Made by a program: the position numbers and the translations under genes
Shown: piece by piece, positions 20,154 through 55,724 of the stretch
How the letters are laid out: each line of letters opens with the position of its first letter
How positions within the stretch are numbered: position 1 is the first letter of the stretch
Notes under the pieces: model-generated
Databases searched by the model: none
The model's input: only the letters and a program-made list of their open reading frames with translations
Told to the model about the DNA's origin: nothing
Source: a virus
DNA length: 64,000 nt
Strand: one strand, 5' to 3'
Virus record (IMG/VR): IMGVR_UViG_3300020455_000014
Span: 1 to 64,000 of that record

Positions 20154-23100
20154 ATGATTTTTGGTTGGATTTCAGAAAAAATTAATGATGCTCTTGATGA
20201 TATAAATACAGCATATGATAATCTTACGGACAGTTTTCGTGATTGGGATATTAGTAAATTAGAAAATCCAAGTGTTATTGACCCTGGAGATTGGGGTCCT
20301 TCTGTTGTAGATGGCTTAGAAACTGTAGTAGATACTGTCGAAAATACTGTAAAAGCTATAGCAGATAAACCTGTACAATTTATAATTCAAGCAGCGGTAA
20401 GTACCTTTGCTCCTAGTTTAGCTCCTATTGTAAATGGAGCCATAGCTGCTACAAATGGGGCAAAACCGTTAGAAATATTAAGAGCTTCTGTTTTAACTGC
20501 TGTGACACCTAAAGTTGCCGAAGCAGCTGGTAATTATACTTCAGATTTTCTTACAAATGTAGATATTAGTAGTAATCTTACTACCTCTATTTCAAATATT
20601 GCTGAAAAATATACAGAAGCAAGGTTACAAGGTGGAGACGCTGAATTATCTCTTGTTACAACTGTTTTAGATAGCGTAAGAACTCCTATCCAAGAAACAA
20701 TATCTGAATTTACTAAGCTTATTGAGGGAATAGAGATAGATATTGATACAGGTGAAATTATTGATTCTGAATTAGAGGAAGCAATAAAAAAGGGAGTAGA
20801 TGCTTTTATAGATACAGGCACAGTAAGTGGTGCTGTAACAAGTTTAGTTGCTGAACAAATAACTCCCCTAATTGATAACTTTTCAGATTTAGCAGGTGCA
20901 AATAAAGCACAAATACAAACTGCTATAACAGCTGCTGTAACAGCAGGGTTAGAAGGAGGTGGGGAAGAAGCTGTAAATGCTGCATATTATGGTTCTTTAG
21001 CAAAGTCTAGTGGAGAAGAATTAGGAGCATTGCTTGAAAAACCTATTACAAATTTTGCTACAGGGATGTTAGAGAGTTTAGGGTTTATACAGAAAAAGGA
21101 TGGTACTCTAGTAAATAAAAACAATGTAATTGTTGATGGTACAGGGCAAGCTGTTAAAGGAGAAGATGGTAAACCTATAGTTTGGAAAGGCGGATTTAGG
21201 GAAGGGGAACAAGACTTAGTTTTTATATTTAATGATGGATCTGCTGTTGAACTTGGCGATGTATTCATAAGTGAAGTTGCGGAAGCTTTAGATCCTAAAA
21301 AATTCAAAAACGCAGAAGAATATATAGAGGCATTAAGATACCAAGTAAATGGCCTTAGAGCCTTACCAGATCAAACTGCGGTTGAATCTAAAATAAATAA
21401 TTTAGAAAAAGTTATTAATGGGGTATCTATATATGAAGGTAAACTGCCTGATGACATATTAGAAAAAAATTATGTATATACTAAAAGACAACAACAACTA
21501 ATTGATGGTATAACTCAATATGGCGGTGCGACAACTTCTGCAGGACAGAAAGCAGCTGCTGTTGCTGACTTAACAGCATATGCTAAAGATATTCCAACCT
21601 ATGCAGAACATAAATTAGACGAAAATATTACACCTGAAATGGTACGTCAATTTATAGATCATAATGAAGTTAATCCTGACTATCTATTGTACAGAGATTC
21701 TAAAGTTGGAAAGAGTACAGCAACAAAAACGGTTTCAGGTACTGAAATGAGTTATGATGAGTTTGGAGATCCAACTATTCCAGAAATAACTTATAATTAT
21801 TCTCCAGAATCTAGTGTATTTGGTACTAAGTTTGAACTTAAGGCGGGAGATAAGATTGAGGGTGTCTCTGATCCTGATCCTTTTTTATCCTATACTCAAG
21901 AAGATATATTAAGCGAAATAGCAAAACACAACGAATTAGCTGAAAGTCTGGGGGCAAATGATTTAAAAGTTACTTTAAAAGCAGGAGATACTCTTTCTTC
22001 TACAGATGCAGCTAAGTTAATGTTAGGAGCGAATATAAGTTATAGTAATGTATATGCCCTTAATAATTTACTTGGAACTAACGTAGATGGAAAAGTAACA
22101 GATGAAAATTTTAAAGATTTAACTATGAAAGAGGTAGGAGAACTTACAGATAGTATGATAACTGAAGATTTTAAAACCACTGCAGCATTTCAAAGTTCTC
22201 AAAAAGAAGATTCCGCTAGCCAAGGAATAATGACTGGACCTGGCCCTGAAATTTTTTTTACGGGGGGAACACCTCAACTACTTCATAAGGCGGGGATTAC
22301 TTTATCTACGATACCTATAAAACTTGCAACTCAGGCAGGAAGAAAGGAACTTGCAGCTCTTTTGGGGGTAAATGTAGCAAGTCTACCTTCTGCAAAAAAT
22401 TTTGCAACGGGAAGTTTTTCTTCTCTCTGGAGTGCTATGAAAGGAACTACGGGGTTATCTGCTAAAGCTGCATTATTTGGAACAGAGGCTTTAAAATACG
22501 ACTTTAACTCAACGATGGAAGAACTTGTAAAGCAAGAAGGAGGAGCTACTCAATTTTTAGCTAGAATGTTTGGGTCTGATAACGTTAAGAATTGGGGTGT
22601 TCAAGGACTTGAGATGGGTTGGGCTACGGCTTTAGGTTTTGAGGAGTTAAAACAACAAGGGATAGAAAAAGTATTCGGGTACGAAGGAGGTAACGAAGTA
22701 GACCTTACTCAACAGTGGGTTGATTATAAACTTGGTTTAGGTGAAAATCCTTATTCATCAGAAACACCTTATGTAAAACTAACCAAAGCAAAACAAGAAG
22801 AAATGAGTAAGTATTTTAGCCCAGAAGCAAAAACCCTATTAGAACAAAATGTAGCTTCAGGAGATGTACAGTTTAAATACGATCCAAATCTAGGCACGTA
22901 TATGCCTGTTGCACTACACAATGTATCTTTTGGTGACGATCCTTCCCTTGCTGGTACATATTTAAAAGCAAATGGTGGGGTAATGGATGTTATAGCTGAC
23001 GTATTAATGTTTAGTTCAGGACCAGTTGGTAGCGCATTAGGGTTTGCACAAAACACATTTGAAGCAAGCGGAGCAACTGTTGCTGCTATTGAACAAGCGT

Positions 23101-24674
23101 TACTTAATAAGTTTGAAAATCCAGACGATAGTTTTACACAAGAGTTTAATTCGTACAAAGAAGCTTATGGTGGGGATTTTGAAGCAATGCAAGCTTTGAT
23201 GAGGGATGCAAAAAAAGTAGTTTTAACTTCAGGTTTAGTAGGTGCAACTATAGATAAAGCGCAAGCAGCAATGATATTAAAGCCTATAACAAAAGCTGGA
23301 TCTAGACTTTTAAACGCGGTTGGGGGAGCTACTTTAGTTGCAGCGGGCGAATCACTTAGTGAAGGTATAGAAGAATTAGTTGCTAATATAGGTATTGCTG
23401 AAGGTACTCTTCAAAAAGGTCTTGATTGGTGGAATACGGTAGGAAACAATTTAATTGGGGCAGGTATAGAAGGAGGCATTGAAGGTTCTCCTGGTGGTGG
23501 AGCTGCGGGAGTAACAGGGGCTGTATCTAATCCTAATTTTGCTTTAAGTGATATTAATGAAGCTGGGAAGGCACTAGCAGAAGAAAATGGTTTACAATTT
23601 GAAACACGGACTGGCACAACAGTTATAAAGAATTTAAATAATAGTGATTTTGCGAAAAGGTTCCCTAATTTTATTGATTTAGGTGAATCAACAATTACTA
23701 ATGACCAAGTTTATGAAAGCGTTGCGTGGGCTTTAATTGATGCCGAAAGTAAAGGACTTGATGGATTAAGCGGAGAAACTATTAACCAACTTTCAAATTT
23801 ATATCCTGAATCTAATATTAATGAAGTACAAAATACTGTAAAGAATGCTATAAATAGTGCTAAAACTTCTAATATAAATTTTCTAGACGGTAATATAGAA
23901 GATAATTTAGCAAAAATAACAGAAAATATTAATATAACAAATACAATACCTGTTACTCCAGCTGGAGATGATACTACTTATACTTCTCTTGACCAACTAA
24001 CAATACCAACAGGTGAAGGAGAAACTACAACAGGGACAGCTACAGATTTTGGTACTTTTACTTCAGGTACAGACACAGCTACTACGACAGATACTACTAC
24101 GACAGGTACAGATACAAACCAGAATACAGCTACAGACTTTAGTACTTTCACTTCGGGTACAACTACTACAAATACAGCTACAGACTTTAGTACTTTTACT
24201 TCGGGTACAGATACCACTACTACGACAGATACCACTACTACAACAGATACAAACCAAGACCAAGATAAAGATACAGATAAAGAACAAGACACTCAAATTA
24301 ATCCTCTAATTAATACTCTTATAACTACACAAGTTGAAGACATACCTGATGAAGAAGAGGAAGAAGAAGAAGAGTTATTTGAAACTTTAGGGGGGGCATC
24401 TCAAGCTGGGTTAATGAAAGTAACTACCCCTGAACCTGGTGATATTGATTATATTTATGATTTTAGTAGTATATTTCCTAACCCAAAATCAGAGGAGTTA
24501 TTACCCACACCTTATGCACCAGAAAAAAATTTCCTTGATGAAATAAGAAATATAGTGCAAAAAGGACCATATGAAGATATAATAAATCCTGAAGGTGAAG
24601 CAGAAAAAGAACAAGAAGAAAAAGAAGAAGCAGAAGAGCTACAAAGACGTGCCAGATATAGAAGGATAGCATAA
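20154..24674 (+). CDS. very large internal/ejection virion protein (1506 aa)
   Basis: Starts with a short helix (IFGWISEKINDALDDI) and Ala/Val-rich amphipathic segments (QFIIQAAVSTFAPSLAPIVN), then long helical regions. A low-complexity Thr-rich section (about residues 1295-1370) contains three copies of a TDFSTFTSGT phrase and long TTTDTT runs. It is followed by an acidic Glu run and a charged C terminus. Length, helical content and position match the internal core proteins that podoviruses eject into the host. No enzymatic motif is seen. Confidence 0.75.
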   Translation: MIFGWISEKINDALDDINTAYDNLTDSFRDWDISKLENPSVIDPGDWGPSVVDGLETVVDTVENTVKAIADKPVQFIIQAAVSTFAPSLAPIVNGAIAATNGAKPLEILRASVLTAVTPKVAEAAGNYTSDFLTNVDISSNLTTSISNIAEKYTEARLQGGDAELSLVTTVLDSVRTPIQETISEFTKLIEGIEIDIDTGEIIDSELEEAIKKGVDAFIDTGTVSGAVTSLVAEQITPLIDNFSDLAGANKAQIQTAITAAVTAGLEGGGEEAVNAAYYGSLAKSSGEELGALLEKPITNFATGMLESLGFIQKKDGTLVNKNNVIVDGTGQAVKGEDGKPIVWKGGFREGEQDLVFIFNDGSAVELGDVFISEVAEALDPKKFKNAEEYIEALRYQVNGLRALPDQTAVESKINNLEKVINGVSIYEGKLPDDILEKNYVYTKRQQQLIDGITQYGGATTSAGQKAAAVADLTAYAKDIPTYAEHKLDENITPEMVRQFIDHNEVNPDYLLYRDSKVGKSTATKTVSGTEMSYDEFGDPTIPEITYNYSPESSVFGTKFELKAGDKIEGVSDPDPFLSYTQEDILSEIAKHNELAESLGANDLKVTLKAGDTLSSTDAAKLMLGANISYSNVYALNNLLGTNVDGKVTDENFKDLTMKEVGELTDSMITEDFKTTAAFQSSQKEDSASQGIMTGPGPEIFFTGGTPQLLHKAGITLSTIPIKLATQAGRKELAALLGVNVASLPSAKNFATGSFSSLWSAMKGTTGLSAKAALFGTEALKYDFNSTMEELVKQEGGATQFLARMFGSDNVKNWGVQGLEMGWATALGFEELKQQGIEKVFGYEGGNEVDLTQQWVDYKLGLGENPYSSETPYVKLTKAKQEEMSKYFSPEAKTLLEQNVASGDVQFKYDPNLGTYMPVALHNVSFGDDPSLAGTYLKANGGVMDVIADVLMFSSGPVGSALGFAQNTFEASGATVAAIEQALLNKFENPDDSFTQEFNSYKEAYGGDFEAMQALMRDAKKVVLTSGLVGATIDKAQAAMILKPITKAGSRLLNAVGGATLVAAGESLSEGIEELVANIGIAEGTLQKGLDWWNTVGNNLIGAGIEGGIEGSPGGGAAGVTGAVSNPNFALSDINEAGKALAEENGLQFETRTGTTVIKNLNNSDFAKRFPNFIDLGESTITNDQVYESVAWALIDAESKGLDGLSGETINQLSNLYPESNINEVQNTVKNAINSAKTSNINFLDGNIEDNLAKITENINITNTIPVTPAGDDTTYTSLDQLTIPTGEGETTTGTATDFGTFTSGTDTATTTDTTTTGTDTNQNTATDFSTFTSGTTTTNTATDFSTFTSGTDTTTTTDTTTTTDTNQDQDKDTDKEQDTQINPLINTLITTQVEDIPDEEEEEEEELFETLGGASQAGLMKVTTPEPGDIDYIYDFSSIFPNPKSEELLPTPYAPEKNFLDEIRNIVQKGPYEDIINPEGEAEKEQEEKEEAEELQRRARYRRIA
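24036..24260 (+). repeat. imperfect coding repeat in the 1506-aa protein
   Basis: Copies starting at 24036, 24126 and 24174 encode TATDFxTFTSGT, separated by ACT/ACA-rich runs encoding poly-Thr/Asp. Slippage or recombination could change the length of this linker. Confidence 0.8.
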
Positions 24675-48343: not shown

Positions 48344-48604
48344 CTAACCGTATATCCAGAATGTTTCTTCTGATAATCGTTTTCCTATTCCTTTCACTTC
48401 GGTTGGTGGTGGGTTGGGGTCGCACAACATAAGTATAGCTATACGACCTTGTATCCACCTCGGTAATTCATTTATACCCATATAACAATTATCAAGTGTG
48501 TTGTCAAGACATTCAATACCAATACATATCACATTAACTCTTTTCTTATCCTTTGGTATGTTAACGTGATATACTACACCATCTGGTATATTATTGAGTG
48601 ACAT
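48344..48604 (-). CDS. hypothetical phage protein (86 aa)
   Basis: MSLNNIPDGVVYHVNI starts at 48604; an in-frame GTG at 48616 is an alternative. The C-terminal phrases ELPRWIQGRIAILMLCDPNP, EVKGIGKRLSEETFWIYG belong to a short protein that I recognise from marine phages, although it has no named function. It overlaps the end of the 305-aa gene and closes the AAA/VWA block. Confidence 0.7.
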   Translation of the reverse strand: MSLNNIPDGVVYHVNIPKDKKRVNVICIGIECLDNTLDNCYMGINELPRWIQGRIAILMLCDPNPPPTEVKGIGKRLSEETFWIYG

Positions 48605-49508
48605 AAAAACAACCACTGCTTTCTTTGTAGCCTACATCATCAACAAACTCTTGTTCTTTGAGCATAGTAAGACAAGATAGTTTACCCATGATATCTTCGG
48701 GTATCGTGTCCTCTGTGTAGGTATTCAGTTGACCATTTGCTTTTTCAATCGCAGAGTTGGGGTCATGGTTTATATTGTCAAAAGGTACAACGTCAAACTT
48801 CTGTTGTCCATCTTCCATATACACCCTAACGTGATACAGACTAAGAGTTTTTCTATCTCTTTCCCTAGATACATCATAGGCTTCTAAAAAGTCAGAAACA
48901 GCACCCCCGAATGATTTGTCAATAAACTCATAGCCACTATCTAGGATAGACTTAAACTCCTTCGCAAGTTTATCCTCGTTATACATAGTGCTAGATAAGT
49001 TTCTCAGCTTTTGACTAAGGTCGTAACCTATATCATCAAACTTTCTCTTAGCATCACGTAGATGTAAACTTGCAATATCATAAGCATTTGGATTACGTAA
49101 CCATTTGCAAGCGTTCTTAACGGCTTTAGTTTCATGTATTGTTCTCACCATGTGATAAGGTGTGCTATAGTCACTATACTTATTGTTCTCAATAGGGTGA
49201 GAATAAACTGCGTACTCATCTTCTGCTCCAGATACATGAGTATTAAAATCACCATAGCCTATGTAACCCATAGTGTATGGCATATCTTTCATATATACCC
49301 ACAGTTCTGGACTACTGCTATTGTCTCTCTTCCATGCAAACGAGATACCACGCATAGCATTAGCGAGCCTTGTTGCCATACCATGTAACCTTGAGTATCG
49401 CCTATAATCTTTAAAGCTACTTCCAAGCAAAGTATTGATATCAAGTTCTTCTAACTCTTCAGTTAGCTTTCTCTCAAAGTTATGTTTTGTAAAATTACTT
49501 GTGTCCAT
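48591..49508 (-). CDS. uncharacterised protein of the AAA/VWA block (305 aa)
   Basis: AAGGAAGG precedes the ATG. A soluble, largely helical protein with an aromatic-rich middle (SPELWVYMKDMPYTMGYIGY) and a C-terminal beta part (LYHVRVYMEDGQQKFDVVPF). No motif is recognised. It shares the Trp/Tyr-rich style of the 169-aa and 496-aa genes upstream and is directly coupled to them, suggesting they act together, perhaps as substrates or adaptors of the AAA ATPase. Confidence 0.7.
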   Translation of the reverse strand: MDTSNFTKHNFERKLTEELEELDINTLLGSSFKDYRRYSRLHGMATRLANAMRGISFAWKRDNSSSPELWVYMKDMPYTMGYIGYGDFNTHVSGAEDEYAVYSHPIENNKYSDYSTPYHMVRTIHETKAVKNACKWLRNPNAYDIASLHLRDAKRKFDDIGYDLSQKLRNLSSTMYNEDKLAKEFKSILDSGYEFIDKSFGGAVSDFLEAYDVSRERDRKTLSLYHVRVYMEDGQQKFDVVPFDNINHDPNSAIEKANGQLNTYTEDTIPEDIMGKLSCLTMLKEQEFVDDVGYKESSGCFYVTQ

Positions 49509-49702
49509 TACAGACCTTCCTTTCTTATATATGTTAGTGTATCACTAACGTCTTGGGGTTTCTCTAATAAGTCCTTGAGTGTGATATAATCATGGTAGAT
49601 ATGATCGCATTCCCAAGGGTTCTTACATTCTTTATGTTGTAAGGCTATCGGTTCGATATGCTCCAACAATCTATGTAATGATTTCATATGATAATGTTTC
49701 AT
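49508..49702 (-). CDS. 64-aa hypothetical protein of the AAA/VWA block
   Basis: Abuts the next gene (overlap at 49508) and lies 2 bases after the 169-aa gene. Contains a His/Cys-rich segment (HIEPIALQHKECKNPWECDH IYHDY with intervening residues) that could bind a metal. It is small and helical, with no family assigned. Tight spacing indicates it is part of the operon. Confidence 0.65.
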   Translation of the reverse strand: MKHYHMKSLHRLLEHIEPIALQHKECKNPWECDHIYHDYITLKDLLEKPQDVSDTLTYIRKEGL

Positions 49703-49704
49703 AG

Positions 49705-50214
49705 TTATACTACCTCTCTTTCTTTGTGTGCAATAAAGTCTTTTACCGACATAAGGTTCATAAAATTGTGTTGAATATGTTTTGATATGAACATTGAGCT
49801 GTCAAGATGATCTGCAAGAGTTCGACCCTCAATACAACCACTATCCTCTTCACGGCTTTCGTCATCATCAGTATCTTCTCCAACACGTATAAACTTGTAA
49901 GCATATGGAAAGCTACGTTCCTTTTTGAAGTCCCTACATACATCACGTAAAGAATTAATACAATGAACATCTTGGTAGCCATTACCAAAAGGATTTTCTT
50001 CGTACCACTTCCACTGTTCAGCAACGACAACAATACTATACACTTTGTTTGGGAGTTTATCTGGGTTGATTGGTTTCTCCTCACATATCTTAGTGTGTTC
50101 TGACAAATCATACTCTGCGTATCGTTTGTCCATTGACCAAGCAGTAAACACTTCTTGCATATGGCTTATGTCCATAAAAGAATGCACTATAACTAGATCG
50201 CTACGATATCCCAT
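49705..50214 (-). CDS. MGYRSD-type phage protein (169 aa)
   Basis: Opens MGYRSDLVIVHSF, an N terminus shared by small proteins scattered in large and marine phages. It then has a Trp-rich region (VVVAEQWKWYEENPFGNGYQ) and an acidic loop (EDTDDDESREEDSGC). Probably an alpha/beta fold. Function unknown; it sits between two genes of the AAA/VWA block and overlaps the 496-aa gene's stop. Confidence 0.7.
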   Translation of the reverse strand: MGYRSDLVIVHSFMDISHMQEVFTAWSMDKRYAEYDLSEHTKICEEKPINPDKLPNKVYSIVVVAEQWKWYEENPFGNGYQDVHCINSLRDVCRDFKKERSFPYAYKFIRVGEDTDDDESREEDSGCIEGRTLADHLDSSMFISKHIQHNFMNLMSVKDFIAHKEREVV

Positions 50215-51704
50215 TATGCAACCTCTTTCTGGTAGTGAGTGACTACCTTTTTCTCACTTACTGTGCTAACAAGGTCTAGTATCTTGTTGATCCATCTGTT
50301 GTACTGGCTACGCACTCTGGATCTTAGTTTTTGTTCACCAGAACCATCTGTCCAAGTTTCATCAATAGTACCTTGTTTGACATGACGTAAATCACTATCC
50401 AATACAAACATCTCCACAAGTGTAGGTCTTGCTTCATGTGATTGTTTTGTTATGACGTGTTCGATAAACTTACTTTTACCTTTCCAATCCCACCTATAAC
50501 TATGATCTTTGAGTGTATCAATTTCTTCTTTAGTAGCATTTGGGTTTTGCCATAGTGTATAGTGTTCCATAAGTATGGCTTGTCTATCTTGATATATGTG
50601 CCAGTTAACATGACCCTCATCATTCATACCACAATCAAGCAAAGGGTACATAGTCATGATGTACTCATAGAATTTATCCATGTGTGGTTTGATCCTAGCC
50701 TTACGAGTTTTGTTAACTTGGGTGCGTGGACTTTCAAATGTAAACGAGTTACCTGCTATCTTCCAACCGAGATGTTTACCTGATGCAGACACCACTCTTT
50801 CAAACAACAAATACTTGTTGTCATCTCTATCCATACCCCATGCGTTCCATCTGTTCATACCATGCTCATTATCGTTGGGATAGTAAACGTGTTTACACGA
50901 AGGGTTATAATCACTCTTGGGTAGAAAGTATTTACATTCGGGGTGATCCTCAAGATGTTTCCATATCTCTCCCCACTCTATCCATCCCCCATACGTTCCA
51001 TCTTCGACAGACCCTGCTTCTTTCGTGTGATTATCTATTACCTCTTTGTTTATGTTACATACATATTGTTTACCATTCTGAACATGAAACATAAGGTCAC
51101 TTGGTAACGTACACTCAAGAAAACAATAACGTCCTTGATGCCCACCACTACCAGAACCATTACGTACACGTAAGTATTCTTTACCATTCTTCCGATACCA
51201 CATGATCGGTGCTAATTTTTCTATCTCATTAGCAGTTGGTACATGGGGTACATAATACTGTTTAGATGTAGTATCTGTTACTGAAGTATCATACCATGAC
51301 CACCATGATACACTATCCCAAGTACCATCATTGATAAGATACTTGTCATCATTTATTTTCATAATACGTTCCCACTTTCTGTGCCTAGCACCAACAGGTC
51401 TGATATCTTGTTCTCTTGTGTGGTTCTTACTCACAACAGGTTTGACACTATTGTACATTTCTTCTACTTCTGCAAACGTATTTAGTCTTTGATCTATATA
51501 TCTGTTCATTTTGTTTCTCCTTTTTTCTGAACGTTCTTCTCGTATTGATACCAGTTTTTGCATATACTGATGTAGTTCTGGGTGATCCTCAACATTCCAT
51601 TCTTCACTGTAGTCATTGAGCCAAGGCTCACCCAATTTATTTTTGTTCATGTACTCCAACACATTTATTGTAAGTTGAGTTTCTTTAGATAACTTAGAGG
51701 TCAT
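50214..51704 (-). CDS. uncharacterised 496-aa protein of the AAA/VWA block
   Basis: Begins by overlapping the end of the VWA gene by 11 bases. The N terminus is helical and charged. A large Trp/Tyr/Gly-rich central part (GTWDSVSWWSWYDTSVTD, SGSGGHQGRYCFLECTLP) recalls a carbohydrate- or RNA-binding beta domain. The C terminus is helical again. I do not recognise a family. Position directly after the VWA gene makes it the best candidate for a specific client or adaptor. Confidence 0.7.
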   Translation of the reverse strand: MTSKLSKETQLTINVLEYMNKNKLGEPWLNDYSEEWNVEDHPELHQYMQKLVSIREERSEKRRNKMNRYIDQRLNTFAEVEEMYNSVKPVVSKNHTREQDIRPVGARHRKWERIMKINDDKYLINDGTWDSVSWWSWYDTSVTDTTSKQYYVPHVPTANEIEKLAPIMWYRKNGKEYLRVRNGSGSGGHQGRYCFLECTLPSDLMFHVQNGKQYVCNINKEVIDNHTKEAGSVEDGTYGGWIEWGEIWKHLEDHPECKYFLPKSDYNPSCKHVYYPNDNEHGMNRWNAWGMDRDDNKYLLFERVVSASGKHLGWKIAGNSFTFESPRTQVNKTRKARIKPHMDKFYEYIMTMYPLLDCGMNDEGHVNWHIYQDRQAILMEHYTLWQNPNATKEEIDTLKDHSYRWDWKGKSKFIEHVITKQSHEARPTLVEMFVLDSDLRHVKQGTIDETWTDGSGEQKLRSRVRSQYNRWINKILDLVSTVSEKKVVTHYQKEVA

Positions 51705-52914
51705 ATGATTTCACATGAACATACTTACCAACACTAGGCACAACATCATTATCAATGATGCACCAAAGTATCGGACAAGTCCATGCTCCCCAATCACCAC
51801 CTAAGTAACCATCTGTTAACACGATACACGCTTGTGGCTTGATGGATTTCTCCGCCATGTACTGTGGTACACACTCAACCATTGTACCACCTCCACCGTC
51901 TGGCTTTGTTGATTGTACAATGTTAGCTACCTCGTGTTGCTTGTACTCTTCGTCAGCACATACCTGCGTGTCCCAATAAAGTATACGCACAGTATCTGGT
52001 TTTACTGTGTCACATATACCTTTGACTTCGGATAAGAATATATTGAGTTCACGAGTACCTATACTACCAGACGTATCAATGGCAAGCACTAACTCGTCAA
52101 CCTTTTCCGATATACCACTAGGCATATAGATGTTTTGACCTATAAACCTACGATTAGGTCTATTCCATGTTGAGTAGTCCTTACCTCTGCAAGTGGTGGT
52201 AATAAACTCACGCAAGACTTGTTTCCAATCTATCTGTGGTTTGAGTAAGTCACCGAGTTCACGACTACCACCACTACCAGTCTTACCTGCAACCATTGCA
52301 CCTTGACGTATAGCTTCATCAAGATCACGAGCAAGTTCTTTCTTCTCTTCTGGTGTTAACTCGTCAGCACCCTTGTGGTCATGTATGTCAAAGCCATCAG
52401 GTAGTGAGCCACTACCTTTACCTCCACCTTTACCTCGTTTCTCTTTGTTTGGTAAGTCATGGTAAACTCTGGCAGTATCCCAACCCTCATACTTCTCGTC
52501 ATAACAACCTTTCTCAAGTTCACCAGACATTGTGGCAAACCCATCTTCGTTGTCAGCGACAAGTTTGGTATTGATAACCATGTCCATAGCTACGTTTGAT
52601 CTCTCTGCATCATCTTGCACCAAGTGTTTCCATGTGGTGAGATGTTTATATAACTTGTGATAGTTCTCATGTAATACAAGAAACCTAAGTTCTGCATCAT
52701 TGAGTTTCTCAATAAAGTCACGATAGTACCACTCGTGTTTGCCATTGGTACACGCAGTATCACAACCCCCTTTCTCAAGAGGGTCGTTTATTATTTTACG
52801 ATCACCAATCATCAGTATACCTGCAAGTGCAATATACTTCGGTGATCCCATGATATCAACAACGGCTTTACTTAGTCGTTGCTCAGGTGTTAGTTGTTTA
52901 CCTATCTGTAACAT
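51694..52914 (-). CDS. VWA protein with N-terminal metallopeptidase-like domain
   Basis: 406 residues. LRFLVLHENYHKLYKHL holds an intact HExxH at 82-86, and RSNVAMDMVINTKLVADN follows, the layout of DUF2201-type putative metallopeptidases. A Gly/Ser-rich linker (about 160-172) and a helical part lead to a von Willebrand A domain with the MIDAS residues DTSGS (280-284), Thr344 in GGGGT and LTDG (366-369). Such proteins partner MoxR-type AAA ATPases; the ATPase gene lies two genes upstream in the same operon. Confidence 0.85.
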   Translation of the reverse strand: MLQIGKQLTPEQRLSKAVVDIMGSPKYIALAGILMIGDRKIINDPLEKGGCDTACTNGKHEWYYRDFIEKLNDAELRFLVLHENYHKLYKHLTTWKHLVQDDAERSNVAMDMVINTKLVADNEDGFATMSGELEKGCYDEKYEGWDTARVYHDLPNKEKRGKGGGKGSGSLPDGFDIHDHKGADELTPEEKKELARDLDEAIRQGAMVAGKTGSGGSRELGDLLKPQIDWKQVLREFITTTCRGKDYSTWNRPNRRFIGQNIYMPSGISEKVDELVLAIDTSGSIGTRELNIFLSEVKGICDTVKPDTVRILYWDTQVCADEEYKQHEVANIVQSTKPDGGGGTMVECVPQYMAEKSIKPQACIVLTDGYLGGDWGAWTCPILWCIIDNDVVPSVGKYVHVKSYDL

Positions 52915-53039
52915 GTTTTCATGTCCTCCTTTTGTGTTTTCTCCTGGGCTACCTCCTTGAGGTATTTGAGAGCCTTGATTACACGTCTCTTCTGACGCTT
53001 TTGATTAGCCATTACTCTTCTAAATTTACGTCCTCGCAT
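52902..53039 (-). CDS. 45-aa very basic protein
   Basis: ATG at 53039 has AGGAGG 5 bases upstream. The product MRGRKFRRVMANQKRQKRRV continues as a charged helix and ends 13 bases inside the VWA gene. The end of this gene contains the AGGAGG of the VWA gene, so the two are coupled. It probably binds nucleic acid; no domain is known. Confidence 0.65.
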   Translation of the reverse strand: MRGRKFRRVMANQKRQKRRVIKALKYLKEVAQEKTQKEDMKTCYR

Positions 53040-53048
53040 TTAGTCCTC

Positions 53049-54146
53049 CTATTTTTTATCTGCTACAAACATATAATTATTTTGCATAGCCCAATCGGTG
53101 AATTTCTTGTTGGTCATCACCATTGATCTCTTTGCATATTTCTCTGACCTCACACCATTGGCGAATAGACCTTGTGCTTCTTTATCAAGACGCAACATAT
53201 AGTCTAGCCAGTTGTTGATCCAATCTTTCTCAAGGTTAGCAAGTGTACGATACACAACCATGACTACACCACTAGCAGTTGTTGGTACTTTGGCTGTCTT
53301 TGGTTCTTTCTTGATACTATCAAGACTTGGCAAGTCATCTGCTAGTTTAACAAATGCCATCAAGTCCATAGCACCACGTTCACCTATTGAACCCATGAGT
53401 AAACTTGTTAGTGTGTGGTCATCAAACTGATCCCGTAACTTTACCCAATCACTTGCACACTCTAACGACCTCGGTGTAACAAAAGATGTTTGTGTTGCTT
53501 GTGGGTGAAAGATGTATGGATTATCTTCTGGTGTCTTTACATCTTCGAAAGTATGTAACAAGTGTGGATTGTCTTTGACCCAACCAAGTACAGTACTGTC
53601 CATGTCATTGTTGATACCCCATTCGATAAACTCCATGTGGTCTGGCTTGCGTACTTGTACAACAGTAATACGATTGCGACCATGTGGTGGTATGATATCA
53701 CCTACACCCTCTGTACCTAAGTTGGTAGTCGCAAATAATAAACTGTCTGGGTGCATTTCATAGCTACCTATCTTTCTCTCATAGATAAGACGTAACAAAC
53801 CATTGAACACAGCAGGGTTAGCTTTACCAATCTCGTCAACCATCAGTATGATCGGAGTGTTTGCAAGATGTAACCCAAGTTCTTCGTTGGTTGCAAATGT
53901 AACATAGTCGTTACCGTCTTTGTCTTTGAGTTTAGGTATCAACAAGTCACCTAAGTCTTTAGTTGTACAATCAAAGTAACAAGCCATGTAGTTTGGTAAC
54001 AAGTTAGCAAGCATATATAATGTTGATGATTTACCCGTACCTATATGACCTTGCATCAATACAGTTCGTTTGTTACCACCTGCAATGATTGCTTTTACAC
54101 ATTGATCTAAAGATAGTGCGTACATTGTTGTTGCTGAATTTGCCAT
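53049..54146 (-). CDS. MoxR-type AAA+ ATPase
   Basis: 365 residues. Walker A GHIGTGKS (33-40), Walker B ILMVDEIGKA (Asp104, Glu105), sensor 1 FATTN (138-142) and an arginine-finger candidate in GRNR (156-159). The lid domain is followed by a long helical C-terminal extension (about 240-365). The combination with a VWA/metallopeptidase gene matches MoxR-VWA or CobS/CobT-like chaperone pairs, which remodel protein complexes or insert metals. AAAGGAG at a proper distance supports the ATG. Confidence 0.85.
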   Translation of the reverse strand: MANSATTMYALSLDQCVKAIIAGGNKRTVLMQGHIGTGKSSTLYMLANLLPNYMACYFDCTTKDLGDLLIPKLKDKDGNDYVTFATNEELGLHLANTPIILMVDEIGKANPAVFNGLLRLIYERKIGSYEMHPDSLLFATTNLGTEGVGDIIPPHGRNRITVVQVRKPDHMEFIEWGINNDMDSTVLGWVKDNPHLLHTFEDVKTPEDNPYIFHPQATQTSFVTPRSLECASDWVKLRDQFDDHTLTSLLMGSIGERGAMDLMAFVKLADDLPSLDSIKKEPKTAKVPTTASGVVMVVYRTLANLEKDWINNWLDYMLRLDKEAQGLFANGVRSEKYAKRSMVMTNKKFTDWAMQNNYMFVADKK

Positions 54147-54174
54147 TTTAGTTCTCCTTTATTTTTGGTTACAA

Positions 54175-55074
54175 TTATATATCAAGACTTGGCAATGCCT
54201 TGATTGCTTTATCTACGGCTTGTTTTGTTTGTTGCCGTAAATCACTGTCCTCGCGTAAAGCATCTGGTGTAACACCTCGCAAGGCTTTATCTAAATTAGA
54301 CTTCATTGATTTCATGTCTGCATTACCAGTAAGATTGAAGTGATCTAGTAGATCGACAACATCTGCAACATTGGTAACTAGTGTGTCACGAAATGTCTTT
54401 TTATCTTCGTCACCTGAATAATCTAGTCTTTCAGACATACGTGATAACACGTCATGTAATCTATGCCATGCAGTATTCATAGATCTGGATAGTTGTTCCT
54501 CATAGAAAGACGCATACTGTTCTTGCACCTCTTTCAAACCCTCGTTACCAATATCAATACGAAAGTCACCACTCTCTGGTAATGGTATATAGTTCATTGA
54601 CCATTTGAATTTTGATTTGATACTCTCAAGTGATGGATAGTTGTCTGCATGAAATAACGTGCCGAGTTTGTCCTTGGCATCTACAATAGATTGTTCATAG
54701 ATAGCAAAGAAGTTATCACATAGTCTGTGAAACTCTTGTTGCAGTTCTGACATCTGCTTGTTGTATTTGAAATATAAAGATGTGGGGATAAGTTGTAGTC
54801 CAGACTTGCTCCAAGGCAATGTCATTGCGTAATGTATGTTTCTAGCATTACTGACAAACTTTTTTATTGTATCAAGTTCTTGGCAATCACCTAGTAACTT
54901 CTTGTGTACATTTGCAATACCAATGTTAGCATTGTGAGTATTCGTTACTTCCTCTGATGCTTTCTTATCTAGCTTTCTGCCTTCCCACTTAGAGATGTTA
55001 ACCTCTACCAACATAGCACTAGAGTTTAATGTTGGTGCAGTAATGTTCGCTAAAGATGTGTCTTGAATATTCAT
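54175..55074 (-). CDS. DUF3150-like protein, first gene of the AAA/VWA operon (299 aa)
   Basis: ATG at 55074 is set by AAGGAG 7 bases upstream; a further upstream start has none. The N terminus (VEVNISKWEGRKLDKKASEE) and the helical remainder match the DUF3150-type proteins that I recall beside MoxR-like ATPases in phages and mobile elements. It is nearly all alpha-helical with coiled-coil segments. It probably works with the downstream AAA ATPase; the assignment is tentative. Confidence 0.65.
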   Translation of the reverse strand: MNIQDTSLANITAPTLNSSAMLVEVNISKWEGRKLDKKASEEVTNTHNANIGIANVHKKLLGDCQELDTIKKFVSNARNIHYAMTLPWSKSGLQLIPTSLYFKYNKQMSELQQEFHRLCDNFFAIYEQSIVDAKDKLGTLFHADNYPSLESIKSKFKWSMNYIPLPESGDFRIDIGNEGLKEVQEQYASFYEEQLSRSMNTAWHRLHDVLSRMSERLDYSGDEDKKTFRDTLVTNVADVVDLLDHFNLTGNADMKSMKSNLDKALRGVTPDALREDSDLRQQTKQAVDKAIKALPSLDI

Positions 55075-55204
55075 TTGTGTTCTCCTTGTTAAATTGATAC
55101 TTTTTTTATTATACATACATAGTAGCATATGTATCAGTTTGTGTCAAGTAATTTGGAGAGATATGTTTTGGTGTGTTTTGGTGGTATATTGTGGTGGATT
55201 GTGT

Positions 55205-55535
55205 AATGTTCCAAAATGATTTGTAATGTTCCCTTTTTTTTACGCGTAAGTTATTGATAATAAAGTAATGTTCCATTGTTCCGTTTTTTTCAGAGAGTGT
55301 ATGTCTGTGGAGATGATTTTGAAAGTGGAACATTAGAGAAAACCTTGAGGGTCGAAATCCTGCTAGATACATATATATTTTTAAAAAAGGAACATTATAT
55401 ATATAGTGATAAATATAGCACAAATCTTATGCACTAAACTTCACTGTTTACAACGATCTACTACGTTTAGTTATTAAAACCTAATGTACCTTTTTGCAAA
55501 ATAAAAATGGAACATTTGGAACATTGTGGAACATT
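55205..55535. repeat. array of nine TGTTCC / GGAACA octamer motifs
   Basis: AATGTTCC at 55205, 55225 and 55267 and ATTGTTCC at 55275 lie in one orientation on the left. GGAACATT at 55327, 55389, 55509, 55518 and 55528 lies in the opposite orientation on the right. The two groups are thus inverted around about 55300. Iterated, oriented sites fit an origin (iteron-like) or multi-site regulator binding. Confidence 0.75.
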
Positions 55536-55607: not shown

Positions 55608-55689
55608 CGACTCACAGCTACATTGATAACTGGTATCATATAACACGTTATACATGGGCGACTCACAGCTACATTGATAACTGGTATCA
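55608..55689. repeat. 31-bp perfect direct repeat with dyad core
   Basis: Two identical 31-bp copies (55608-55638 and 55659-55689) start CGACTCACAGCTACAT. Each ends in TGATAACTGGTATCA, whose ends TGATA/TATCA form a dyad. The spacing of 51 bp is close to five helical turns, which suits two operator sites on one DNA face. Confidence 0.75.
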
Positions 55690-55695
55690 AAAGGA

Positions 55696-55724
55696 CAAAA
55701 AAAAGGAGGGTTTTTACACCCTCC
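55696..55724 (-). terminator. rho-independent terminator of the 237-aa gene
   Basis: On the minus strand GGAGGG, an 8-base loop, CCCTCC and then eight T residues directly follow the stop codon of the 237-aa gene. It separates that gene from the AAA/VWA operon. Confidence 0.85.

Follow-up and report, generated by a model that had tools for sequence, protein, structure and literature searches.

A predicted three-subunit MoxR machine of mobile elements, coupled in one phage clade to fast-evolving partner proteins at the head of the replication operon

The MoxR-clade AAA+ ATPases of NorQ/NorD, CbbQ/CbbO, RavA/ViaA and midasin form rings that work with a von Willebrand factor A (VWA) co-chaperone, and their clients are respiratory enzymes, rubisco and the ribosome. 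In the account of NorQ-NorD (PMC9976466), which also covers such clients, the AAA+ hexamer grips the VWA protein (VWA finger), the metal of the metal ion-dependent adhesion site (MIDAS) binds an acidic site on the client, and force from ATP hydrolysis is passed on to this client. Viruses carry related pairs: p618 and p892 of the archaeal virus ATV (Acidianus two-tailed virus) are a MoxR-VWA pair whose physical interaction has been demonstrated, p618 also binds virion proteins (PMC4124505), and the pair is tied to tail development, whereas jumbo phages encode a MoxR ATPase and a VWA protein with an N-terminal metallopeptidase domain for which virion assembly was proposed (Iyer et al. 2021, PMC7824862). 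MoxR-vWA ternary conflict systems of multicellular bacteria add VMAP, iSTAND, FtsH or beta-propeller third components (eLife 2020, PMC7159879). For pCAR1, the sections available of PMC2642839 describe the genes of ORF100-103 as conserved in R478, Rts1, SXT and R391, and assign no function to ORF101-103. Here we analyze a related module on the minus strand, from 55,074 to 48,344, of a 64 kb stretch (the window) of the 67,274-base IMG/VR virus record IMGVR_UViG_3300020455_000014, in which a DUF3150-like protein, a MoxR-type AAA+ ATPase and an HExxH-VWA protein are encoded with three partners, p305, p90 and usually p496.

We found the operon to run from the DUF3150-like gene through the AAA+ gene, a gene for a 45-amino acid (aa) protein, the VWA gene, p496, p169, p64 and p305 to p90. 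A first-pass annotation, made from the sequence alone, had drawn the operon in this way, and all the genes it named are open reading frames (ORFs) where it placed them. Identical gene order was seen again in dozens of IMG/VR contigs, confirming the conserved neighborhood that this annotation had called for; hence, the genes are real and not due to chance. These contigs belong to one clade, were retrieved with polymerase and p496/VWA queries, are in many cases fragments, and in some cases give more than one locus. Downstream and in the same direction lie genes for the nuclease p124, a PolA-type polymerase, an exonuclease, a helicase, a Gp2.5-like single-stranded DNA-binding protein and a primase/helicase, and the clade keeps gene order across this whole replication arm; terminase and portal are encoded on the opposite strand. 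Hence, with a predicted promoter of its own upstream and replication genes downstream in the same direction, the module is promoter-proximal in the replication operon. By terminase, the closest named or cultured phages share 41-47% identity and comprise 023Pt_psg01, the pelagiphages HTVC027P and HTVC023P, DSL-LC04 and the cyanophages of the Pag-Yong1 group. On balance, we consider it probable that the locus encodes a MoxR machine with three subunits, carried by mobile elements and accompanied in this clade by p305, p90 and usually p496; the parts of this machine are real and conserved.

The 406-aa VWA protein (51,694-52,914, minus strand) matched the Pfam families DUF2201_N (E=3e-25, 89.8 bits against a gathering score of 23.2) and VWA-like DUF2201 (E=2e-14, 54.3 bits against 26.4), and phrog_1314 of PHROGs (E=2e-84). 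Its HENYH sequence is an HExxH motif. Every full-length VWA protein among the fetched loci has this motif (42/42), and it does not vary across 15 aligned sequences, N4 gp25 among them. Both this motif and the MIDAS residues (D280-S282-S284-T344-D368) are unchanged from the window phage to N4 gp25, Vequintavirus and Bacillus phage G, and the N-terminal DUF2201_N domain is a putative metallopeptidase. A relative of this protein is encoded in 767 of 50,697 phage records, always at less than 60% identity. Both phrog_1314 and N4 gp25 (NC_008720.1 11164-12306) are labeled 'HNH endonuclease' by PHROG/RefSeq; this label appears wrong, because the family proteins are DUF2201 metallopeptidase-VWA proteins with HExxH and MIDAS motifs.

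The gene of the 365-aa ATPase (53,049-54,146, minus strand) adjoins that of its VWA partner. The protein matched AAA_5 above the curated Pfam cut-off (E=6e-7) and phrog_1297 (ATPase; E=1e-45), and relatives occur in 332 phage records. Walker A was present in 35/35 AAA proteins, and G36-G38-K39, D104-E105, N142 and R226 (Walker A/B, sensor residues and conserved arginines) were invariant. Among solved structures, the AAA modules of midasin are nearest to the ATPase profile (E 2e-32), and NorQ was also detected as a structural relative, though far more weakly (E 5e-4). With AAA_5, DUF2201_N and DUF2201 all above curated cut-offs, the MoxR-type AAA+ ATPase and the VWA protein with its HENYH domain were correctly recognized in the first-pass annotation. 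The ATPase/VWA pair was already known from N4-like, Vequinta- and jumbo phages; one or both of its genes lie near rIIA/rIIB in the Schitoviridae and Vequintavirus records that we examined.

The third component is a 299-aa protein (54,175-55,074, minus strand). Its start at 55,074, also the end of the block in the first-pass annotation, is an ATG behind an AAGGAG ribosome-binding site; the ORF opens at 55,128, a less likely start. Pfam DUF3150 (PF11348) was matched by 6/9 family members (best E=2e-7) and at E=0.004 by the window protein (17.0 bits against a cut-off of 24.9); from these profile matches, the protein probably belongs with DUF3150. We calculated partial Mantel correlations of pairwise divergence, controlled for DNA polymerase distance, with 16-23 contigs (21-23 for the trio), and found partial r values of 0.84 for DUF3150-AAA, 0.79 for DUF3150-VWA and 0.82 for AAA-VWA (permutation p = 0.0005). 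In comparison, the neighboring nuclease gene p124 gave only 0.12-0.18 with the trio genes, which was not significant. Hence, relative to the phage backbone, the three genes have been swapped or replaced together, and in the simplest reading DUF3150 acts as a third subunit dedicated to the AAA/VWA machine.

The trio also occurs outside this clade. Cyanophage Pag-Yong1 has the same DUF3150/AAA/VWA genes; a DUF3150 homologue lies between AAA and VWA on plasmids of Robbsia, Rhodovastum and Cupriavidus and directly precedes VWA on a Simplicispira plasmid, these homologues scoring 135-194 bits with the phage profile. In a plasmid-wide search, the DUF3150 branch was present in 41 plasmids and the VWA gene lay 5-106 bp away in 41/41; VWA was also present without DUF3150. 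Moreover, pCAR1 ORF101-103 have the same three components in the order AAA-DUF3150-VWA, with HECSH and DKSGS motifs (HExxH and MIDAS) in the VWA protein; this set is highly divergent, its DUF3150 protein reaching merely 6-15 bits with the phage and plasmid profiles, and it includes no p305, p496 or p90. For the plasmid homologues, the searches for DUF3150 near AAA/VWA pairs and pCAR1, some hmmsearch E-values come from tiny sequence sets, so bit scores are to be read instead. We did not locate the Rts1 homologue within the 50 kb inspected, and the literature searched made no mention of DUF3150. The candidate neighbors gp569, bas54_0056 and N4 gp30 were checked and are not DUF3150. Contig L047 (1351-5945) has the order AAA-DUF3150-VWA rather than DUF3150-AAA-VWA, and its trio diverges from that of the window more than its polymerase does; this looks like replacement of the whole trio cassette. 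In Pag-Yong1, a Planktothrix phage, a gene just downstream of the trio (22084-23124) carries the depositor label anti-CRISPR AcrVA2 and has no Pfam match.

Compared with the known systems, the window module thus has familiar parts in an extended set. The jumbo-phage pair and N4 gp24/gp25 are the same two proteins as here, with identical HExxH and MIDAS motifs; however, N4, D505, MaxBurger and phage G lack p305, p496 and p90, and DUF3150 was undetected near their AAA and VWA genes within the stretches examined of these Schitoviridae, Vequintavirus and phage G records. Unlike for the window module, neither an HExxH domain nor DUF3150 is described for NorQ/NorD, CbbQ/CbbO, RavA/ViaA and midasin in the accounts consulted, and the VWA partner of the ATV pair has no peptidase domain (PMC7824862). 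The ternary conflict systems share the logic of MoxR, VWA and a third conserved component; in contrast to them, the window module is phage-borne, and Pfam and NCBIfam domain searches recognized no VMAP, iSTAND, FtsH or beta-propeller domain in its proteins.

Beyond the trio, we found p305 (48,591-49,508, minus strand) downstream of VWA in 37/37 contigs with at least 2.5 kb upstream of p305; where this upstream sequence exceeded 5.5 kb, DUF3150, AAA and VWA were all found (26/26 contigs). Hence the separation of partners from the AAA/VWA pair, which the first-pass annotation had said would speak against a common system, was not seen in these contigs. The C-terminus of p305 is homologous to p90 (48,344-48,616, minus strand; 86 aa from the ATG at 48,604) with an hhalign probability of 97.5% (E 5e-12), and p90 is, judged by this match, a duplicate of the p305 C-terminal domain as a stand-alone copy. 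Both p305 and p90 are near-obligately linked to the trio in this phage clade. In addition, p305 co-varies with DUF3150 (partial r 0.68), AAA (0.55) and p496 (0.53) but not with p124 (0.07), which lies nearer; since this covariation with DUF3150 and AAA goes beyond the backbone, p305 appears functionally tied to the trio. In contig L018 (363-1402), p305 is split in two overlapping reading frames (frameshift or assembly error).

The third partner, p496 (50,214-51,704, minus strand), whose start overlaps the VWA stop, is usual and not obligatory, as it was detected in 34/37 contigs. Nothing of its size is present in L081, L073 and L106, and two unrelated small genes take its place in L083, L087 and L076. 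One of these replacements (L083 5127-5525, L087 6617-7075, L076 901-1209) encodes a small conserved protein (YVVTSYGDHFPLFIWE...), and the second small protein at the site resembles, by eye, a helix-turn-helix protein. Between VWA and p496, L006 (3244-3732) and L009 (3257-3694) encode a protein that by eye is cell-wall-hydrolase-like (ALAVYFEARGEP motif). The other genes of the block are patchy: the 45-aa basic protein (52,902-53,039, minus strand) was found only in the window virus and the near-identical contig L022, p169 (49,705-50,214, minus strand), which begins MGYRS, in a minority of contigs, and the small p64 (49,508-49,702, minus strand) only in the closest relative, L003. From this distribution in a minority of contigs or close relatives, we regard all three as accessory. 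Hence, the ten-protein block proposed earlier does not hold as a single unit; what stands is the DUF3150-AAA-VWA core with near-obligate p305/p90 and usual p496.

In agreement with the earlier description of partners without recognized function, p496, p169, p64, p305 and p90 had no significant match in Pfam or PHROGs, and p496, p169, p305 and p90 matched nothing in NCBIfam or PADLOC. AlphaFold2 models of p305 and p496 reached a predicted local distance difference test score (pLDDT) of 75.5 and 82, respectively, and searching the PDB for their folds gave nothing at E <= 0.001; at the same threshold in BFVD, the p305 model matched solely uncharacterized proteins of uncultured phages. At the sensitivity used, no relatives of p496 and p305 were found in INPHARED phages, nor of p496 in GTDB contigs. 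Homology between p496 and p305 was considered, and profile comparison showed none.

We found p305 and p496 evolve several times faster than the trio. Mean pairwise identity was 0.70 for the polymerase, 0.58 for AAA, 0.57 for VWA and 0.42 for DUF3150, falling to 0.37 for p496 and 0.29 for p305. For close pairs, the ratio of nonsynonymous to synonymous substitution rates (dN/dS) was 0.1-0.6 (mostly 0.2-0.6) for p305 and p496, and 0.02-0.2 for AAA, VWA and polymerase. These two partners are fast-evolving yet still constrained; positive selection on them is unsupported, as dN/dS stayed at 0.1-0.6 save for one pair with a dS of 0.012.

Upstream of the module, a candidate sigma70-type promoter (55,119-55,147, minus strand; TTGACA-17-TACTAT with TG before the -10) is predicted from its match to the consensus and from sequence conservation, its TTGACA being invariant in a 5-phage upstream alignment. 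A strong intrinsic terminator (55,705-55,724, minus strand) closes p237 upstream of this promoter and isolates the transcription unit of the module. Between them (55,205-55,535) lie eight copies of the octamer AATGTTCC, with nine copies in the 64 kb and 2.7 expected per whole window; five copies in one orientation are followed by three in the opposite one, so that the two groups converge about an AT-rich center. Most clade contigs have the array at the same site, in fixed synteny with the VRR-NUC/polymerase genes, and its last two bases are phage-specific (CC, CG, CT or AC). The array looks like a candidate origin (iterons) or an operator whose recognition protein co-diverges. At 54-56 kb, the cumulative GC skew passes through a local minimum, and gene orientation also flips there. 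The same intergenic region has a perfect 31-bp direct repeat (55,608-55,638 and 55,659-55,689).

By analogy with NorQ-NorD, the AAA+ protein would form an ATP-driven hexameric ring on which the VWA protein docks, capturing a client through its MIDAS metal site, with DUF3150 as a constant structural or coupling subunit. ATP hydrolysis would remodel the client, and since the HExxH domain is fused to VWA, remodeling may be coupled to cleavage by this N-terminal domain. We propose that p305, p90 and p496 may be client-facing proteins (adaptors) or clients, a role that would let them change fast while the motor stays constant. The module comes first in the replication operon, and a promoter of its own probably drives its expression; this position suggests action early or in the middle of infection, and the likely target would be a cellular or replication complex and not virions alone.

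What such a machine acts on could be answered in several ways. The pair could be a chaperone that folds or assembles head or tail proteins while the HExxH domain trims them, as the virion assembly role proposed by Iyer et al. for the same architecture (PMC7824862), the binding of ATV p618 to p892 and to virion proteins (PMC4124505) and the four virion proteins encoded near the gp24/gp25 homologues of roseophage RPP1 (PMC4193335) would suggest. However, the trio is present on plasmids without virion genes nearby, the module is part of the replication operon, whose strand is not that of terminase and portal, and N4 gp24/25 are middle genes (PMC4193335); we consider this explanation unlikely. That the trio is also found on plasmids, and that the module here opens the replication operon, speaks against virion assembly as its sole role, though substrates could differ per element. 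The position beside the polymerase genes and the putative origin array would instead be explained if the machine remodeled the phage or plasmid replisome or its initiator. Consistent with this are the fixed synteny of the octamers with the VRR-NUC/polymerase genes, the plasmid trios, one of which has toprim and partition genes nearby, and the GC-skew minimum, although the skew is confounded by gene orientation. The trio was undetected in related pelagiphage-type records with similar polymerase and terminase (50 kb examined in each), so that group can replicate without it, and we hold replisome remodeling to be rather unlikely.

The first-pass annotation had named the remodeling of a host complex or the countering of defense as possible tasks, which stay conjectural, and had mentioned MoxR-VWA pairs in conflict systems. 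A conflict-system assignment found no support: PADLOC gave no match, and the bpMoxR Pfam match was below the cut-off for the module proteins. A machine that dismantles a host complex, with p305, p496 and p90 as target-specific adaptors in an arms race, would still fit the fast evolution, the loss and replacement of p496, the promoter-proximal placement and the presence of the trio on unrelated mobile elements. In contrast, loss of p305 is very rare, every adequately diverged pair gave a dN/dS below 1, and the name AcrVA2 for the gene next to the Pag-Yong1 trio comes from the depositor alone; counter-defense or host takeover is therefore a possible but doubtful role. At best, we give host takeover, counter-defense and replisome remodeling each a distinctly minor chance. 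That the genes are functionally unrelated and held together by conserved phage architecture is improbable; the clade does keep order over its whole replication arm, but co-inheritance beyond the backbone was found for the trio and p305 and not for the neighbor p124, and the trio is kept across plasmids and phages whose other gene content differs.

Several observations weigh against the three-subunit machine with its clade-specific partners. Some relatives, namely N4, Synechocystis pSYSA and the Acinetobacter pRBH2-3 element, encode AAA and VWA in the stretch examined, where DUF3150 was undetected; some branches thus do without DUF3150. Taken alone, the DUF3150 match of the window protein is below the Pfam cut-off. 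Also, p496 is missing from some contigs, replaced or simply absent, and fast evolution without clear dN/dS above 1 fits relaxed constraint and conflict equally. Moreover, the contigs are related members of a single clade, so their counts are not independent.

Hundreds of phages, the model phage N4 among them, carry the MoxR-VWA-metallopeptidase pair, as do many plasmids. To this pair, our analysis adds DUF3150, predicted to be a constant third subunit within one widespread branch, and a phage clade that couples the machine to a fast-evolving, genetically linked set of partners. We tentatively suggest, with rather low confidence, that DUF3150-AAA-VWA/zincin may be one general unfolding-and-cleaving machine common to phages, conjugative plasmids and integrative elements and directed by element-specific adaptors; if so, p305, p90 and p496 would be the first adaptor set identified. 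Hence, these three proteins are concrete candidates for clients or adaptors, and the question can be tested in N4 and pCAR1.

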